The notes beneath the pieces were generated by a model, which ran no database searches, was not told where the DNA came from, and saw only the letters and a list, made by a program, of their open reading frames with translations. DNA of 64,000 nt. Origin: Lysobacterales bacterium. GTDB lineage: Bacteria > Pseudomonadota > Gammaproteobacteria > Xanthomonadales > Rhodanobacteraceae. Position 1 is the stretch's first letter. Every line of letters begins with the position of its first letter. Where the stretch lies: contig NSJK01000005.1 in assembly GCA_002632325.1 (NCBI GenBank), positions 1-64,000 of the forward strand. The letters are read 5' to 3'. Both the position numbers and the translations under genes were made by a program. This document shows, piece by piece, positions 40,778-55,885 of the stretch.

Positions 40778-42040
40778 CTACAACTTGCGCCGCGGCGGTA
40801 TCAAGAGGTCGCCGAAGAACAATCCGGCGACGATCGCGATCAACAAGGCCGTCATCGTCACCGCGGTATCGATGCCGAGCAGCACATTGCGATCGAGCAC
40901 GTAGCTCAGGCTGCGAAAGCCGACGCTGCCGGGCACCAGCAGGATGATGCCCGGCTCGCGGATCAGCGCGCCGGGACGATTGGCCAGGCGCGCGAACAGG
41001 TTGCTGGCCGCGCCGACCACGAGCGCACCGAGGAAGGTACCGAACACCGGCGAAACATGCGTGCCGCCAACCTGGGTGCAGACATAGCCGAGCAGGGGCG
41101 CAGCGATCACCAGCGGCGCGAAGCGGCGCGGCGTCTTGAACAGCACCGCAAATGACATCGCGCCGGCGAAGATCGCCACCCATTCCGCCCAGATCGGGAT
41201 CGGCGTGGTGTCAGCCGGCGGCGGAATCAGATGCAGCAGCGCGCAACCCTGCAACGCGGCGACGCTGCCGAACAGCAGTTTGAGCAAGGTGGCCAGCGCA
41301 CCCATCATGCGCGCAGTGCCTGACACCAGATGTTGACTCGACAACTCGCGCACCGCGGTAGTCAGGGTCATGCCCGGAATCAGCACGATGACGCTGGCGA
41401 TCACCACCGGCCGCAGTTCCAGCGGCGTGAGGAAGCAGGCGACGAGAATGCAGACCAGGGTCGAAGCAAATGCCGCAACGGCCTCGAAGGCATTGGCGAA
41501 GCTTGGCCAGCGCGCGGGCAGCAATGCCAGCGCGCCGATCAGCAGGCCATTGAGCAAGGCCACTGCGACCTCGATCCAGCCAGTGTGCAGAATCGCCGCA
41601 ACCGTCGCCGACGCGACGCCGAAGGCGATCACGGTCGCCGCCTGGGTCAAGCGGCTGCTGCGGCGTGCGCCGATTTCGCGCAGGCAGCGCCGCCCTTCGG
41701 CGAGATCAAGCTGACCCGCGATCACGCGATCGGCGATGTCGTCGACCTGACACAGCCGCGCGAGATTCACCTCACCCGGCGGCACGCGCACCACCTGGGT
41801 GAACTCGGCCAGATCATCGCCGGCGGCAAGATCGGAGAACGACATCACGATCGAGGTCGGTGTCGACAGCACGTTGCAGGCCAACCCGAGCCGCGCGCTG
41901 GCGAGATTGACCACGTCCTCAAGGCGTGGCGCCGCCGTACCGTACTCGTGCAGACGGCGCGACAGCTCGACGATGAAACCGATCCGCGTCTTGAGCGGAT
42001 AGGCGCTGTCGGGAAATTGGGCGGGACGGGCGGCAGACAT
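40778..42040 (-). CDS. Threonine/serine exporter (ThrE) family protein
   Basis: ATG 42040 (MSAARPAQFPDSAYPLKTR) gives 420 residues. An N-terminal cytoplasmic part (20-135, with ELSRRLHEYGTAAPRLEDVV and REIGARRSSR) precedes about ten membrane segments. This matches the ThrE layout, in which the DUF1212-type and DUF3815-type domains are fused in one chain. ThrE of Corynebacterium exports threonine and serine by proton antiport; activity here is inferred by family only. The N-terminal blocks FIVELSRRLHEYG, ASARLGL and MSFSDLAAGDDLAEFTQVVRV are characteristic. It is divergent from the mlaE gene with 92 bases between the starts. Confidence 0.85.
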   Translation of the reverse strand: MSAARPAQFPDSAYPLKTRIGFIVELSRRLHEYGTAAPRLEDVVNLASARLGLACNVLSTPTSIVMSFSDLAAGDDLAEFTQVVRVPPGEVNLARLCQVDDIADRVIAGQLDLAEGRRCLREIGARRSSRLTQAATVIAFGVASATVAAILHTGWIEVAVALLNGLLIGALALLPARWPSFANAFEAVAAFASTLVCILVACFLTPLELRPVVIASVIVLIPGMTLTTAVRELSSQHLVSGTARMMGALATLLKLLFGSVAALQGCALLHLIPPPADTTPIPIWAEWVAIFAGAMSFAVLFKTPRRFAPLVIAAPLLGYVCTQVGGTHVSPVFGTFLGALVVGAASNLFARLANRPGALIREPGIILLVPGSVGFRSLSYVLDRNVLLGIDTAVTMTALLIAIVAGLFFGDLLIPPRRKL

Positions 42041-42132
42041 CGTGCAATTTTGCCTTGCGCGCCGCGCAGCGGCGAGGGGTGTGGTGCAACGACAGGCATT
42101 GCCGTTTGTCATTTGCCTGCTAGCCTTGGCCG

Positions 42133-43224
42133 ATGCCTGCCGCCATCACGCCCGGTCTTTCCGTCCAAGGAGATGTCCTCGCCGCCAGCGGCGACTGGAC
42201 ACTGGCTGCCGCGCCCCGGTTGGCGGATCTGGTCGCACGCAGCAGCCGCACAGCGCGCATCGACGCCAGCGCGATCGCCCGCCTCGACACGGCCGGGGCG
42301 CGCCTCCTGCTCGACCTCGCCGATCTCGAACGCATCGATGGCCTCGACGCCAAGCGCCGCGCCCTGCTCGAAGCAGTTGCCAAGGCCAGCAGCACTCAGG
42401 CACCGGCAGCGAAACCCGCCAACGGCTTGTTTGAAGTCTTCGCACGCACCGGCCTTGCCGTCGAGCGCATTGCACGCGACGCCGTCAAACTGATCGGCTT
42501 CATCGGCCTCGTGCTGGCAACCATCGCTCGCACCGTGCCCAATCCGCGCCGCTGGCGCCCGACCTCGCTGGCCTTCCATCTGGAGCAAACCGGGCTCGAT
42601 GCGGTGCCGATCGTGGTCCTGCTCAACTTCCTCGTAGGCGCCGTGGTCGCTTTCCTCGGCGCCACCGTGCTCAAGGATTTCGGCGCAACCATCTACACGG
42701 TCGAACTCATCGGCTACTCCTTCCTGCGCGAATTCGGCGTGCTGCTCACCGCAATCCTCATCGCTGGACGCAGCGGCAGCGCCTTCACGGCGCAAATCGG
42801 CTCGATGAAATCACGCGAAGAACTCGACGCGATCCGCACCCTCGGCCTCGATCCGATCGAAGTGCTGGTGATGCCGCGCCTGCTTGCCCTCCTGATCGCC
42901 CTGCCCCTGCTCACCCTGCTGGCAATGCTCGCCGGCATCGTCGGCGGCGGCGTGGTCGGCGCGCTCAGCATGGACATCTCGCCGACTCTGTTCGTCAATC
43001 GCCTGCATGAGCTCGGCGCGACGCGTCACTTCTGGGTCGGCATGAGCAAGGCCCCGATCTTCGCGTTCCTGATCGCCTGTATCGGCTGCCTCGAAGGCTT
43101 CAAGGTTTCGGGCAGCGCCGAATCGGTCGGCACGCACACGACTTCGAGCGTGGTGCAGGCGATCTTCATGGCGATCCTCGTCGATGCACTGGCGGCGATC
43201 TTCTTCATGGAGATCGACGTATGA
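42133..43224 (+). CDS. mlaE: MlaE-type lipid ABC transporter permease fused to an N-terminal MlaB-like STAS domain
   Basis: The 363-residue protein has two parts. Residues 1-85 look like a STAS fold (VQGDVLAASGDWTLAAA, RIDASAIARLDTAGARLLLD), the role filled by separate MlaB in E. coli. Residues about 110-363 are the MlaE permease: PIVVLLNFLVGAVVAFLGA, ILIAGRSGSAFTAQIGSMK and EELDAIRTLGLDPIEVLVMP are diagnostic. The complex moves phospholipids between inner and outer membrane and so keeps outer-membrane asymmetry. It opens the mla cluster but is separated from mlaF by 1.5 kb of repeats. The stop overlaps an ATG (ATGA) that starts a long open frame through the repeats, which I consider non-coding. 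Confidence 0.92.
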   Translation: MPAAITPGLSVQGDVLAASGDWTLAAAPRLADLVARSSRTARIDASAIARLDTAGARLLLDLADLERIDGLDAKRRALLEAVAKASSTQAPAAKPANGLFEVFARTGLAVERIARDAVKLIGFIGLVLATIARTVPNPRRWRPTSLAFHLEQTGLDAVPIVVLLNFLVGAVVAFLGATVLKDFGATIYTVELIGYSFLREFGVLLTAILIAGRSGSAFTAQIGSMKSREELDAIRTLGLDPIEVLVMPRLLALLIALPLLTLLAMLAGIVGGGVVGALSMDISPTLFVNRLHELGATRHFWVGMSKAPIFAFLIACIGCLEGFKVSGSAESVGTHTTSSVVQAIFMAILVDALAAIFFMEIDV

Positions 43225-43439
43225 GCGGGGCGAACGTTGGTTCGGCTTGCGCCGTAGTCGCTGGGTCATTTGGGTTTGTGCGTTTGCGCAACAGCCGACT
43301 CGCGTCCGTGCGCGGTCGTCCCGCATCCGCGCCACTGGGGATTTCGGCTGGCGCCGTAATCGCTGGGTCATTTGGGTTTGTGCGTTTGCGCGACAGCCGA
43401 CTCGCGTCCGTGCGCGTTCGTCCCGCATCCCTGCGGTCC

Positions 43440-43475
43440 GGTGGCTTTCTCTTGCTTGCCCAAGAGAAAGTCACC
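43440..43475. repeat. 36-base hairpin, copy 1 (direct)
   Basis: Arms ggtggctttctcttg and caagagaaagtcacc enclose cttgcc; one mismatch in the 15-base arms. It starts module B of the repeat block between mlaE and mlaF. Confidence 0.85.
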
Positions 43476-43862
43476 AAAGAGAAGGGCACCCTCACGGCCT
43501 TGGTCCCGCGCGCATCGTGCGCGCGGGACTGCGCAGACGCGCTGCGGGGTTTGCCGACCGTGCATTCATGCACGCACGGCAAACTCGGCGCGATCCATCG
43601 CGCCGCCCCTGCGGGCCTCTTCTTCGCGCGCCTGCCGCGGCCGAAAGGGGCTGAAAAGCGCAAGCGCGGGCATCCTGCCCGCACACGGAGTCCTGATCGT
43701 GTTCGCGTTCGCGAAAACCGACTGGCGTCCGTGCCTGTTCGTCCCGCATCCGTGCCGCTGGCGATATCGGCTGGCGCCGTAATCGCTGGCTCATTTGGGC
43801 TTGTGCGTTTGCGCGACAGCCGACTCGCGTCCGTGCGCGTTCGTCCCGCATCCATGCGGGCC

Positions 43863-43898
43863 GGTGGCTTTCTCTTGCTCGCCCAAGAGAAAGCCACC
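43863..43898. repeat. 36-base hairpin, copy 2 (direct)
   Basis: Perfect 15-base arms ggtggctttctcttg and caagagaaagccacc enclose ctcgcc. It is the same element as at 43440, shifted by 423 bases. Confidence 0.88.
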
Positions 43899-44474
43899 AA
43901 AGAGAACGGCGCCCTCACGGCCGTGGTCCCGCGCGCATCGTGCGCGCGGGACTGCGCAGGCGCGCTGCGGGGTTTGCCGACCGCGCATCCCTGCACGAAC
44001 GGCAAACTCGGCGCGATCCCTCGCGCCGCCCCTGCGGGCTTTTCCTGCGCGCGCCTGCCGCGGCCGAAAGGGGTTGAAAACCCAAGGCGCGGGCATCCTG
44101 CCCGCACTCGCGAAATGTCGGATCCGGTGCTGCGCACCTTGATCCGACCTACGCCATGCCGCGCTGGTGGTTCGGCTCAAGCACCGCAGGTGCGGAACCG
44201 ACAATCGAGCAGCATCGAAGCACTGCACGGCTTCTGCTCAGCGAGCCGAGCCCGCACGCACTGCTGCTCTGGCTTCGTCGCGCAGGAGCGCGCTGCTTCC
44301 ATTCCCCTTCAGCGACGGCGGGCGATGGCCGAGATGCCCGCAGGGTGCGCGCGATGGAGCGCGCGCATTGCGCCGTCAGCACAGGGATGTGCTGTGGGCG
44401 CAACCGGCCATCGACCGCGGACCTTGCGCGCACGAGGCGCGCAAGGCGGCGCTGCGAGGGGCGCCCTTCTCTTT

Positions 44475-44510
44475 GGTGGCTTTCTCTTGGGCGAGCAAGA
44501 GAAAGCCACC
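44475..44510. repeat. 36-base hairpin, copy 3 (inverted)
   Basis: Perfect 15-base arms with loop ggcgag, the reverse complement of the copy 2 loop. The flanks are also reversed: after it come ggcccgcagggatgcgggac and a match to module A read backwards. Copies 2 and 3 therefore face each other. Confidence 0.88.
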
Positions 44511-44754
44511 GGCCCGCAGGGATGCGGGACGAACAGGCACGGACGCCAATCGGTTTTCGACAAGCCGAACAAACCAAGGCAAACACATGGCCAAGGCGCA
44601 CGCCGAGTCCCCGCCCGCAGGGATGCGGAACGAACCAACAGGGACGTCGATGGGTACTCGTGCGAACGCACGAGCAAAATCTAGCCCGCGGATTCGGCGT
44701 AAGCCGAAACCCCCAACCATGCGGATGCGCAACGAACAAAACAAACCCCAACCG

Positions 44755-45570
44755 ATGAACACCGAGCCCGAGAACATCATCGAAGTCCGCGGTCTGCGCA
44801 ACCAATTCGGCGCTCAGGTCGTGCACGAAAACCTCGACCTCGACGTGCGTCGCGGCGAGATCATCGGCGTGGTCGGCGGCTCGGGCAGCGGAAAATCGGT
44901 GTTGATGCGCTCGATCATCGGCCTCAACCGTCCGGCCGCGGGCAGCGTGCGCTTGCTCGGCATCGAGATGACCAAGGCCAGCGAGGCTGAGCGCAGCCAG
45001 GTGGAACAGCGGTGTGGCGTGCTGTTCCAGAATGGCGCGCTGTTTTCCTCGCTCACGGTTGCCGACAACGTGATGGTGCCGATGCGCGAGCATTTCCGCT
45101 TGCCGCAGCAGGCGATGGAACGTTTTGCCGCGCTCAAGATCGCGCTGGCGGGCCTGCCCGAGAATGCCGGCGCGAAGTTTCCCGCGCAGCTCTCGGGTGG
45201 CATGGTCAAGCGTGCGGCGCTGGCGCGCTCGATTTCGCTCGATCCGGATATCCTGTTTCTCGATGAACCGACCGCCGGGCTCGATCCGATCGGCGCGGCG
45301 GCGTTCGATCAGTTGATCCTCACCTTGCGCGACAGCCTCGGCCTGACCGTGTTCCTCATCACCCACGATCTCGACACGCTGTACACGATCTGCGACCGCG
45401 TCGGCGTGCTTTCGCGCAAACGCGTGCTGGTCTGCGATACGCTCGACAAGGTCGAGCGCCATGACGACCCCTGGATCCAGGAATACTTTCAGGGTCCGCG
45501 CGGACGTTCGGCCGAATTGGCCGCACGCAAGACGCAGGCCCGACCCGCATCGACCACCGGAGCTGCCTGA
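44755..45570 (+). CDS. mlaF: MlaF-type lipid ABC transporter ATP-binding protein
   Basis: I start at ATG 44755 (MNTEPENIIEVRGLRNQFG), giving 271 residues; the frame runs open far upstream into the repeats, and ATGs at 44719 and 44725 are other options. No clear ribosome site is seen, perhaps because the repeat insertion replaced the native leader. Motifs: Walker A GGSGSGKS near 42-49, Q-loop RCGVLFQNGALFSSLTV, signature LSGGMVKRAALARS, Walker B DILFLDEPTAGLDPIG, and the switch His in ITHDLD. It powers the MlaE permease on the cytoplasmic side. It is followed 2 bases later by mlaD. Confidence 0.92.
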   Translation: MNTEPENIIEVRGLRNQFGAQVVHENLDLDVRRGEIIGVVGGSGSGKSVLMRSIIGLNRPAAGSVRLLGIEMTKASEAERSQVEQRCGVLFQNGALFSSLTVADNVMVPMREHFRLPQQAMERFAALKIALAGLPENAGAKFPAQLSGGMVKRAALARSISLDPDILFLDEPTAGLDPIGAAAFDQLILTLRDSLGLTVFLITHDLDTLYTICDRVGVLSRKRVLVCDTLDKVERHDDPWIQEYFQGPRGRSAELAARKTQARPASTTGAA

Positions 45571-45572
45571 CC

Positions 45573-46517
45573 ATGGAAACCCGCGCCCACCACGTGCTCA
45601 TCGGCGCCTTCACCATCGGCGTGTTCCTGCTCGCGCTCGGCTTCGTGCTGTGGATGTCCAAGACCGGCAGCGATCGTTCGTATCACGAGTACGAGATCGT
45701 CTTCACCGAGGCGGTGACCGGCCTCTCGGTCGGCGGCTTGGTGCAATACAACGGCATCAAGGTCGGCGAAGTTTCGAACCTGCGCCTCGCGCCCGACGAC
45801 CCGCGCAAGGTGGTCGCGCGCGTGCGACTGGATGCGAGCGCGCCGGTGCGCGAGGACACCCGCGCCAAGCTCGGCCTGCAGGGCGTGACGGGGCTGGCCT
45901 TCATCCAGCTCTCAGGTGGCGCGCCGGGCAGTCCGGCGCTGCTGCCAACGCCCGCCCAACCGCTGCCGCGCATTCCCTCGGAAGAGTCGGCACTGTCCAA
46001 GTTGCTGGCCTCAGGCTCCGATGTCGTCACCAGCGTCAACGACATCCTCGTGCGCGTGAGCGAGATCCTCTCGCCCGAGAACGTCAAGCATGTCGGCGAC
46101 ACGCTCGAGCACATCAACCAGCTCACCGCGACACTGGCTGAGCAGCGCGACGAAATCGGCAGCGCGATTCGCCAGCTCGGCGAGGCGACCAAGCAGATGA
46201 AGACCGTGCTCGGCAGCATCAACACCATGGCCGACAGCACCAATGTGCTGGTGCGTGAGGATGTGCGCCATCTGCTGGCGACGATGGACAAGACCCTGGT
46301 CGCGATCGACAAGGTGGCCCATTCCACCGACGCCCTGCTCGATGGCAATCGCGGCGCGATCGACCGCTTCGCCAATCAGGGCCTGCGCCAGGTCGGCCCG
46401 ACCCTGTCCGAACTCAACGAAACGCTGCGCTCGCTCAAGCAGCTCAGCGACAAGCTCGGCGCCTCCGACAGCCTGCTGCTCGGTCGCGACCAGCCCAAGG
46501 AGTACAAGCCGCGATGA
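45573..46517 (+). CDS. mlaD: MlaD-type MCE domain protein
   Basis: The 314-residue protein has one N-terminal membrane span (HHVLIGAFTIGVFLLALGF, residues 5-23) and an MCE domain at about 38-115 with FTEAVTGLSVGGLVQYNG and GIKVGEVSNLRL. The rest (about 140-300) is helical, with ETLERINQL-like stretches such as TLEHINQLTATLAEQRDEIG, and would form the long periplasmic part. E. coli MlaD is shorter (183) and forms a hexameric ring on MlaE; the extra length here resembles MCE proteins that make a tunnel or needle. The next gene starts in a 4-base overlap. Confidence 0.92.
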   Translation: METRAHHVLIGAFTIGVFLLALGFVLWMSKTGSDRSYHEYEIVFTEAVTGLSVGGLVQYNGIKVGEVSNLRLAPDDPRKVVARVRLDASAPVREDTRAKLGLQGVTGLAFIQLSGGAPGSPALLPTPAQPLPRIPSEESALSKLLASGSDVVTSVNDILVRVSEILSPENVKHVGDTLEHINQLTATLAEQRDEIGSAIRQLGEATKQMKTVLGSINTMADSTNVLVREDVRHLLATMDKTLVAIDKVAHSTDALLDGNRGAIDRFANQGLRQVGPTLSELNETLRSLKQLSDKLGASDSLLLGRDQPKEYKPR

Positions 46518-47134
46518 AGATCGTCCGTCTGCCCCTGCTGCTCGCCGCGCTCACGCTGGCCGGCTGCGCCTCGCTGCTCGGCAAGCCGCAGCCGTTCACG
46601 ATCTATGCGCCCGGTTATTCCCCGCCCACCGCACCCGCCGGTGGCGAGAAGGTCAACTGGCAACTGTTGGTGGAGACGCCGCAGTCGAGCGAAACGCTCA
46701 ATACCCCGCGCATCGTGGTGATGCCCAGTCCCGGCGTGATCGAGGTCTATCCAGGCGCGCGCTGGAGCGATCCTGCGCCGGCCCTGTTGCGGCGCCTGAT
46801 CGTGCAGGGCTTCGAGCAATCCGGACGCATACTCGGGGTGGGCAGTCCCACCACCGGCCTCAATGCCGACTATGCGCTGGCGATCGACTTGCACGCTTTC
46901 CAGGGCGAGGTTCGTGCCGACGGTTCGCATGCGGTGGTCGCCTTCCAGGCACGCCTGCTCGATTACCGCAGCAGCCGCGTGCTCGCCTCGCGTGCGTTCA
47001 ATGCCGACGAGCCGATTGCGAGCAAGGACTCGGCGGCTGCGTTCAATGCGTTCCAGTCGGCGGTGAGCGAATCGGTTGCAAGTCTGGTCGAATGGACCTT
47101 GCAAGAAGGCAGTGCGGCGCAAAAATCGCGATAA
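46514..47134 (+). CDS. ABC transporter auxiliary lipoprotein (PqiC/ABC-aux type)
   Basis: The 206-residue protein has a lipoprotein signal with lipobox LAGC (Cys18). The mature protein has the features of the ABC-type transport auxiliary lipoproteins: PFTIYAPGY, WQLLVETPQSSETLNTPRI, YPGARWSDPAPALLRRLIVQ and a late block YRSSRVLASRAF. These occur with MCE systems and are thought to sit at the outer membrane to receive or hand over lipid. It overlaps mlaD by 4 bases (ATGA), so it belongs to the operon. No gene for MlaC lies in the window; this lipoprotein may take its place, which is inference. Confidence 0.88.
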   Translation: MKIVRLPLLLAALTLAGCASLLGKPQPFTIYAPGYSPPTAPAGGEKVNWQLLVETPQSSETLNTPRIVVMPSPGVIEVYPGARWSDPAPALLRRLIVQGFEQSGRILGVGSPTTGLNADYALAIDLHAFQGEVRADGSHAVVAFQARLLDYRSSRVLASRAFNADEPIASKDSAAAFNAFQSAVSESVASLVEWTLQEGSAAQKSR

Positions 47135-48654: not shown

Positions 48655-50420
48655 AGGCAAGCCCGCGCGTTGCCGGCGCGGCGGCACCCGCGACCCGCGC
48701 CACGCACCGCCGAGCGCGACACGAACCCGTGACGCAACGGTCGGGCCTTCCGGCCCTCCTACCCGGCACGACGTGGAGCGGAACCTGGCAACGCGTGGTT
48801 GTAGGAGCGGCGGAAGCCGCGACCAGGAGCCACGCACGAATGGCGCGGCAATCGGGCCTTCCGGCCCTCCTGCGCAAGCAGCGTATCGATGCCACGCAGC
48901 GTGATGGTGCAGGAGCGGTGTAGGAGCGGCGGCAGCCGCGACCCACGCCAGACACCGCCGAGCGCGACACGAACCCGTGACGCAACGGTCGGGCCTTCCG
49001 GCCCTCCTACCCGGCACGACGTGGAGCGGAACCTGGCAACGCGTGGTTGTAGGAGCGGCGGCAGCCGCGACCCACGCCACACACCGCCGAGCGCGACACG
49101 AATCCGTGACGCATCGGTCGGGCCTTCCGGCCCTCCTACCCGGCACGACGTGGAGCGGAACCGGGCAACGCGTGGTTGTAGGAGCGGCGGCAGCCGCGAC
49201 CCGCGCCACACACCGCCGAGCGCGACACGAACCCGTGACGCATCGGTCGGGCCTTCCGGCCCTCCTACGCAAGCAGCGTATCGATGCCACGCATCGTGAT
49301 GATGTAGGAGCGGCGGCAGCCGCGACCCACGCCACACACCGCCGAGCGCGACACGAATCCGTGACGCATCGGTCGGGCCTTCCGGCCCTCCTACCCGGCA
49401 CGACGTGGAGCGGAACCGAGCAACGCGTGGTTGCAGGAGCGGCGGCGGCCGCGACCCACGCCACACACCGCCGAGCGCGACACGAATCCGTGACGCATCG
49501 GTCGGGCCTTCCGGCCCTCCTACGCAAGCAGCGTATCGATGCCACGCATCGTGATGGTGCAGGAGCGGTGCAGGAGCGGAGGCAGCCGCGACCCGCGCCA
49601 CACACCGCCGAGCGCGACACGAATCCGCGACGCATCGGTCGGGCCTGCCGGCCCTCCTACGCAAGCAGCGTATCGATGCCACGCATCGTGATGGTGCAGG
49701 AGCGGTGCAGGAGCGGCGGCGGCCGCGACCCGCGCCACACACCGCCGAGCGCGACACGAACCCGTGACGCATCGGTCGGGCCTGCCGCCCCTCCTACGCA
49801 AGCAGCGTATCGATGCCACGCATCGTGATGATGTAGGAGCGGCGGCAGCCGCGACCCACGCCACACACCGCCGAGCGCGACACGAATCCGTGACGCATCG
49901 GTCGGGCCTTCCGGCCCTCCTACGCAAGCAGCGTATCGATGCCACGCATCGTGATGATGTAGGAGCGGCGGCAGCCGCGACCCACGCCACGCACCGGCGA
50001 GCGCGACACGAATCCGTGACGCAGCAATCGGGCCTTCCGGCCCTCCTACGCAAGCAGCGTATCGATGCCACGCATCGTGATGATGTAGGAGCGGCGGCAG
50101 CCGCGACCCACGCCACGCACCGCCGAGCGCAACACGAATCCGTGACACATCGGTCGGGCCTTCCGGCCCTCCTACGCAAGCAGCGTATCGATGCCACGCA
50201 TCGTGATGATGTAGGAGCGGCGGCAGCCGCGACCCACGCCACGCACCGGCGAGCGCAACACGAATCCGTGACACATCGGTCGGGCCTTCCGGCCCTCCTA
50301 CGCAAGCAGTGTATCGATGCCACGCATCGTGATGGCGCAGGAGCGGTGCAGGAGCGGCGGAAGCCGCGACCAGGAGCCACACACGAATGGCGCAGCAATC
50401 GGGCCTTCCGGCCCTCCTAC
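48655..50420. repeat. Array of 14 paired GTAG palindromes (REP/BIME-like)
   Basis: No gene is present. Two palindromes alternate. REP-A reads gtaggagcggcggcagccgc on the plus strand and starts near 48801, 48919, 49049, 49178, 49304, 49433, 49569, 49706, 49833, 49959, 50085, 50211 and 50348, plus a decayed copy near 48670. REP-B reads gtaggagggccggaaggccc on the minus strand, and its plus-strand image starts at 48741, 48852, 48989, 49118, 49247, 49373, 49502, 49639, 49776, 49902, 50028, 50154, 50280 and 50399. The period is 111-137 bases, most often 126, 129 or 137. A conserved spacer (cgccgagcgcgacacgaa) joins A to B. Two alternative linkers join B to the next A: one with gcagcgtatcgatgccacgc, the other with ccggcacgacgtggagcgga. 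Frames through the array are long but artefactual. Confidence 0.95.
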
Positions 50421-55613: not shown

Positions 55614-55623
55614 GCCGAGCCTG

Positions 55624-55885
55624 CTCCGCTGCTTTCGCACATCCAAGCCGAGCAAGCTCGGCTCTACACAACCTGCCGCGTCGTCGAGCGGAGCTTGCTC
55701 CGCTGCCACGCTCCGCTGCTTTCGCACATCCAAGCCGAGCAAGCTCGGCTCTACACAACCTGCCGCGTCGTAGAGCGGAGCTTGCTCCGCTCCCATGCGC
55801 TTCAAGCCGAGCAAGCTCGGCTCTACACAACCCACCACCCCGTAGGGCGGAGCTTGCTCCGCTGCCGTGCTCCGCTGCCATGCCG
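55624..55885. repeat. Cluster of GTAG-type palindromes of a third family
   Basis: Three inverted pairs occur. agccgagcaagctcggct followed by ctac (minus-strand GTAG) lies near 55646, 55734 and 55804. On the plus strand, gtagagcggagcttgctccg or a close variant lies near 55683, 55771 and 55842. Both cores are perfect palindromes with 8-base arms. An 81-base unit at 55624-55704 is repeated at 55711-55791 with a single substitution. The cluster lies 11 bases after the stop of the P-loop kinase gene and codes for nothing credible. Confidence 0.92.

Follow-up and report, generated by a model that had tools for sequence, protein, structure and literature searches.

The window analysed here is the whole stretch of 64,000 nucleotides, in which the first gene of an operon, mlaE, is separated from mlaF by a non-coding repeat block of two A units on the forward strand and one inverted B unit on the reverse strand (Table 1). 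The 1.5-kb block between these genes, noticed in the preliminary description, is real and measures 1530 bp. The STAS match of the mlaE product scored under the Pfam cut-off. The canonical mlaFEDCB operon is ordered mlaF-mlaE-mlaD-mlaC-mlaB; this order was not found in the window, where MlaF, MlaD and an ABC_trans_aux lipoprotein come after STAS-MlaE in that order, and a second MlaF-like gene, 48% identical to the MlaF of the window, is present elsewhere in the genome (G000:C47:250145). The operon is a secondary MCE operon and not the canonical mla operon, and its earlier label was corrected.

Table 1. Positions of operon genes, repeat units and K modules in the window
Feature	Position	Strand	Remarks
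mlaE (STAS-MlaE permease), first operon gene	42133–43224	+	Pfam MlaE, 9e-70
Entire repeat block, mlaE to mlaF	43225–44754	.	gap of 1530 bp
Outer repeats, two of 102 bp	43241–43430	+	95% matches
423-bp tandem duplication (two A units)	43295–44107	+	92% matches
K module 1	43440–43491	+	core 43445–43470; third strand 43476–43483; loop 43457–43460 pairs with 43485–43488
Inner hairpins, A unit 1	43503–43620	+	inverted repeats; z −6.5 for 43500–43600
K module 2	43863–43914	+	core 43868–43893; third strand 43899–43906; loop 43880–43883 pairs with 43908–43911
Inner hairpins, A unit 2 copy	43926–44043		counterpart of 43503–43620
B unit, inverted relative to the A units	44262–44575	−	117-nt inverted pair, 87%: 43798–43914 with 44459–44575
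K module 3 (B unit)	44459–44510	−	core 44480–44505; third strand 44467–44474; loop 44490–44493 pairs with 44462–44465
mlaF (ABC ATPase)	44755–45570	+	without Shine-Dalgarno
mlaD	45573–46517	+	Pfam MlaD
ABC_trans_aux lipoprotein gene	46514–47134	+

DNA folding of five block stretches was compared with shuffled sequence; four folded better (z −4.2, −3.0, −6.5 and −4.8), and the middle stretch, 44262–44362, folded no better than its shuffles (z 0.08). The modules of the block recurred at at least seven loci of this genome, with one short match on contig C41; copy counts here and in relatives are lower bounds, since part of the candidates was scored. The B unit matched the single units of a relative, G012, at 77% (G000:C27:44272-44559). 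Elsewhere in the window (55623–55883), 87- and 72-bp tandem repeats carry GAGCTTGCTCCGCTC palindromes.

The mlaE-mlaF junction in the genus

That mlaE and mlaF are usually coupled was borne out in the genus, the gap being 0–14 bp in 9/16 genomes. Another three (G003, G009 and G007) have 126–277 bp of non-K DNA at this place, and K-type repeats lie upstream of mlaF in 4/16: G000, the genome of the window (1530 bp), G004 (765 bp), G011 (1303 bp) and G002 (at least 406 bp, a contig end cutting the repeats and leaving the mlaE side out of view). Coupling has thus also been lost without K, as seen at loci L033, L035 and L043, so the junction opens easily. A tree of MlaF and MlaD (17 rows) placed the four K-block genomes in one clade (bootstrap 95, SH-aLRT 92); the coupled genome G010 stands beside it with a less certain placement (88/93). 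A single old insertion is the simplest reading, and two insertions are possible because the left junctions of G000 and G004 differ from that of G011. A possible 4-bp repeat, ATGA, at the junction of G000 and G004 is forced by the stop and start codons.

The absence of a clear ribosome site before mlaF had been taken to fit a recent disruption. The leader does lack such a site, with an anti-SD duplex energy of 0.1 kcal/mol in both G000 and G004 (−3.3 in G011 and G002; median of random 19-mers of the window, −2.3); in the window, mlaD scored −5.8 and the lipoprotein gene −8.0, and mlaE (−0.9) and an mgtE-like gene (−1.5) also scored poorly. Recent disruption did not stand, since a supported clade of four genomes shares the K-type repeats and dS between G000 and G004 is 0.37–0.55 over the four operon genes. 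The first reading had named the same block at the same place in relatives, together with uniform transcription, as the mark of an old insertion tolerated with no effect; block-type repeats do occur in four genus genomes, and on presence, the part of this comparison covered here, the insertion is old and tolerated. Growth of the block is recent, though the insertion is old: the block keeps growing, since the 423-bp unit is present once more in G000 than in G004, and the outer arrays of G000 are longer. In the window, the reading frame of mlaF extends upstream into the block (467-aa ORF from 44167), which is not the case in G004, with an open frame of 284 aa.

Between G000 and G004, dN/dS was 0.046 for mlaE (over 245 of 363 codons, the G004/G000 stretch being incomplete), 0.073 for mlaF, 0.127 for mlaD and 0.122 for the lipoprotein gene; in the coupled pair G013-G015 it was 0.16–0.21. 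With dN/dS at 0.05–0.13 to either side of the block, the flanking genes are under purifying selection and still in use, so the operon tolerates the block. It was also considered whether the block is kept as an attenuator or promoter carrier that regulates mlaF-mlaD. The block is present in four genomes of one clade, and 42000–44900 holds 11 terminator-like sites on both strands, 2.6 being expected; its length and unit number nevertheless vary freely among the four genomes, these elements also occur at numerous unrelated places, and PIT repeats, with which K is compared below, had shown neither promoter nor terminator activity in previous studies, according to PMC4666352. Such a role is considered very improbable. 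The suggestion of a promoter within the repeats found no indication, with 0 sigma-70-like sites in 42000–44900 (0.1 expected by shuffling) in a scan that is weak in GC-rich DNA.

Anatomy and covariation of the K module

Each K module consists of a hairpin (C-Y8-G, a 6-nt loop, C-R8-G), followed by 5 nt and then by 8 purines, the third strand. Four bases of the loop pair with four bases that lie one base past the third strand, forming a pseudoknot; within the block, the last loop pair is T-A in module 1 and C-G in modules 2 and 3. Copies were found with patterns that left the third-strand slot open, and 179 windows, one per genome or contig, were compared, at least 7/8 purines being required in that slot; orientation by purines favours purines there, though not an exact mirror match. 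The third strand was a perfect mirror of R8 in 168/179 windows and matched at at least 7/8 positions in all 179, with one constant offset; when third strands were shuffled among the windows, perfect mirrors numbered 44.7 on average and 63 at most. A duplex G stood opposite a third-strand G in 235/236 cells, and a duplex A opposite an A in 1186/1196. In a larger set of 233 windows, which the 7/8-purine filter kept from 480 (both orientations of each core having been collected), 218 third strands were perfect mirrors (shuffled maximum 80) and all four loop pairs were Watson-Crick in 208 (shuffled maximum 59).

Pairing between the loop and the downstream bases, analysed in 135 of the 179 windows, was found in 96.1% of cells, with double-sided changes at 4/4 pairs. 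For the whole structure in 135 windows, 95.8% of cells were paired (stem positions being partly set by the search pattern) vs 81.6% after shuffling and at most 53% in slid versions. The number of pairs with double changes, 12 vs 9.8 shuffled and matched by 23/500 shuffles, was weak among the five measures. Stems fell into the classes TTTTCTTT, TTTCTTTT, TTTCTCTT and TTCTCTTT with a few others, and some K hairpins of G268 and G300 had no third strand. By these comparisons the three strands covary, as an eight-triad intrastrand triple helix would require; the triads would be A.A-T and G.G-C on one strand, and T.A-T and C.G-C on the other. That all three strands and the closing pseudoknot have changed together, in several stem and loop classes, argues that the K fold itself is selected.

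Were the fold unselected, the palindromes might be kept perfect by template switching at replication, which would account for the perfect hairpins and for the inner palindromes. That process copies complements, and it makes neither mirror repeats nor loop pairing past a third strand, both of which covary in K, so that it was judged a highly improbable source.

Classical H-type pseudoknots run in the order third strand, stem, loop, and those of telomerase RNA and SAM-II contain a major-groove triple helix. K resembles them in that a loop strand runs along the other stem and two stems close the pseudoknot, and differs from them in that its eight triads covary and belong to a repeat dispersed over the genome. 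K might be a structured RNA, transcribed outward from the element centre and folding as an H-type pseudoknot with the pyrimidine loop in the stem groove (U.A-U and C.G-C triads); this we regard as possible but rather unlikely. On that strand of K the order matches the classical one, and one stem pair has 55 A.C cells, which on the RNA strand would be G.U, with 0 the opposite way. The K wobble mismatches numbered 13 G.T vs 65 A.C in total, these 55 included; elsewhere in K they were 13 vs 10, and in the inner hairpins 23 G.T vs 24 A.C, without strand preference. Rfam (release 15) gave 0 matches at gathering thresholds in 12 K loci and 0 in the block region at E up to 1; at E up to 0.5, sub-threshold matches were obtained in one K locus, none of them to a bacterial family of such a kind. 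PMC4666352 places pyrimidine-type intrastrand triplexes in RNA and states that purine-motif ones cannot occur there, which is in favour of RNA.

Two-ended elements and their dispersal

K modules form the ends of larger inverted elements. In G113, all 17 close K pairs ran + then −, 464–708 bp apart and using 34 of the 63 K modules, with the loop CGTGGC at one end and a different loop at the other (counted by eye). The same arrangement was found in 26/27 listed loci with at least two K modules (overlapping loci included; the exception is L155), four of these multi-K spans being longer than 1 kb. G012 carries single units of ~370 bp at 12 fetched loci; 11 were aligned, and most copies were 88–94% identical to the copy at L098. 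A run of degenerate hexamers (of the AGAAGC, CGAAGC, ACAAGC kind) lies beside the unit end in L098-L108, and a longer one in the mla block of G004; the tail beside the G012 units might be of a retroposon-like kind.

A second junction likewise has the element in one genome and is empty in others, the anchors being 470 bp apart in G012 vs 22 in G010, 19 in G006 and 43 in G014; five other relatives (G015, G013, G009, G008 and G007) have 124–265 bp, and G000, G002 and G011, with no reliable left anchor, were left uncounted. Flanking genes, taken from a simple gene caller at 26 K loci (2 unclassified, and one locus with a predicted ORF across K), were on the same strand at 14 of the 24 classifiable loci, convergent at 7 and divergent at 3.

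The K hairpin pattern was found in 84/299 genomes of the order (reversed control 2/299), and a longer pattern, again with controls almost empty, in 35/369 genomes of the class and 17/398 of the phylum, all 17 being own, family, order or class kin. Named hosts among the matches listed are Dyella, Xanthomonas, Methylomonas, Polaromonas, Acidovorax, Thiobacillus, Dechloromonas, Azotobacter, Pseudomonas and Aeromonas; also among them are three metagenome bins of Desulfobulbus or Desulfobacterales, for which misbinning is possible. Judged by these matches, K repeats are spread through the Beta- and Gammaproteobacteria. Plasmid records searched with the window block and phage records searched with its units gave no match; a Dechloromonas K copy matched one Variovorax plasmid record.

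Larger K-bounded segments were checked for resident genes. L199 contained a Y1_Tnp gene, L236 a ferredoxin-like and other ORFs, which we take to be host nif-type genes, and L240 and L284 ORFs without assigned identity; we interpret the large segments as host genes flanked by neighbouring elements. When the ORFs near K loci were clustered, no obvious enzyme emerged, the largest cluster (13 loci) being presumably common transporter genes. DDE-type MITEs are marked by a target-site duplication and a related autonomous element; no clear duplication was seen beyond the possible ATGA repeat at the mla junction, and neither a resident gene nor a common neighbouring enzyme was found at K loci. In the loci read from G268, a genome with 63 cores, an IS30-like element follows directly after K hairpins, as would be seen if it inserted into K by preference; an IS30-like transposase gene adjoins K hairpins in L338 (1548 on) and L340 (472–1600, with HTH_38 and rve).

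Like REP, BIME and REPIN sequences, K repeats are intergenic palindromes in inverted pairs, gene-free and in many copies; unlike them, they have units of ~300–700 bp, and in the genus and the relatives examined K has no Y1/RAYT gene next to it. If the elements were REP or BIME repeats of the ordinary kind, mobilised by a RAYT (Y1) transposase, the many intergenic inverted K pairs would be expected, and two Methylomonas loci do combine K with a Y1_Tnp gene, which is enclosed by two K modules in L199 and adjoins a single one in L250. Against this, a K module was present in 0/30 fetched stretches at loci found in relatives with that RAYT and in 0/20 Y1_Tnp loci of the genus, 5/20 of which carried GTRG-type REP strings (the two sets may overlap); in addition, no Y1_Tnp was found in G010 and G003, which have K-like repeats (assemblies 86 and 77% complete). 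We find this origin scarcely credible. The association with RAYT, which the transposase of L199 had prompted, was rejected on the 0/30 and 0/20 loci, with two Methylomonas exceptions. The RAYT-like Y1_Tnp genes of these two genomes lie at L199 4539–6354 and L250 5675–6345. GTAG/GTRG-type tag strings (GTAGGAGCGG) lie apart from K in the window, at 48801–50211, and ~11 tandem copies of a 126-bp unit with this REP-like string at 48919–50346.

K among intrastrand-triplex repeats

The closest known kind is described by Holder et al. (2015, PMC4666352), where intrastrand triplex classes are defined and the C-rich BoxC motif, stable in vitro, is studied; stable formation of the BoxC triplex in vivo found no support there. 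Like PIT, BoxC and TM_ECO, K copies are dispersed intergenic repeats with a three-strand fold on a single strand. The PIT rule given there allows three consecutive compatible segments of 6–15 nt, loops of 1–6 nt and at most one mismatch; K agrees with it when the stem is taken as 9 nt and one triad as mismatched, the first loop otherwise having 8 nt. In the classes of PMC4666352, K belongs to class II (pyrimidine, purine, third strand) when read along the strand of the A units, and to class IV along the other. The stem sets T/C against A/G and its triads are mostly A.A-T, unlike the C-rich BoxC consensus. Membership of BoxC or TM_ECO was rejected, K being without the C-rich consensus CCCTCNCCC and the two GGGNGAGGG stems given there. 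Unlike PIT and BoxC as described there, the K loop closes a pseudoknot, K forms the ends of larger inverted elements, and its strands are shown to covary from genus to genus; none of the words pseudoknot, covariation and compensatory appears in the accessible text of PMC4666352. K fits a PIT/BoxC-like intrastrand-triplex repeat, with a different stem, the pseudoknot and the larger element as what is new, and the database of PMC4666352 may list K copies already. The open-access literature, most subscription journals lying outside it, yielded no description of triplex-ended gene-free mobile elements, and the matches listed there for exact K motif strings were all on unrelated subjects by title.

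Alongside the observed anatomy, three-strand covariation, inverted ends, presence or absence at conserved junctions and purifying selection, the reading that we favour, and hold to be fairly probable, is that the block goes back to a two-ended repeat that carries no gene and is dispersed in trans. Such an element would have inserted long ago between mlaE and mlaF and would later have been enlarged by tandem duplication. Its ends, the mutually inverted K modules, would fold as a hairpin on one strand; this strand would run back beside the hairpin, supplying the third strand, and then pair with the hairpin loop, giving a pseudoknot-closed eight-triad intrastrand triple helix. Selection would act on the folded single strand, somewhat more probably DNA exposed at replication or repair than RNA; the fold may serve as the recognition end for a trans-acting enzyme that disperses the element, and mlaF-mlaD would be expressed by read-through from mlaE. 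More tentatively, and with some doubt, we propose that the pseudoknot-closed triplex could be the conserved recognition end of an undescribed class of gene-free mobile elements in Beta- and Gammaproteobacteria, moved by a non-RAYT enzyme.

If this is true, the three-strand covariation would be comparative evidence for an intrastrand triplex selected in living bacteria. The covarying K fold offers experiments an exact target that can be mutated. The hairpin repeats of environmental proteobacteria are here named as a family, and a coupled envelope operon is seen to be able to absorb 1.5 kb of them.
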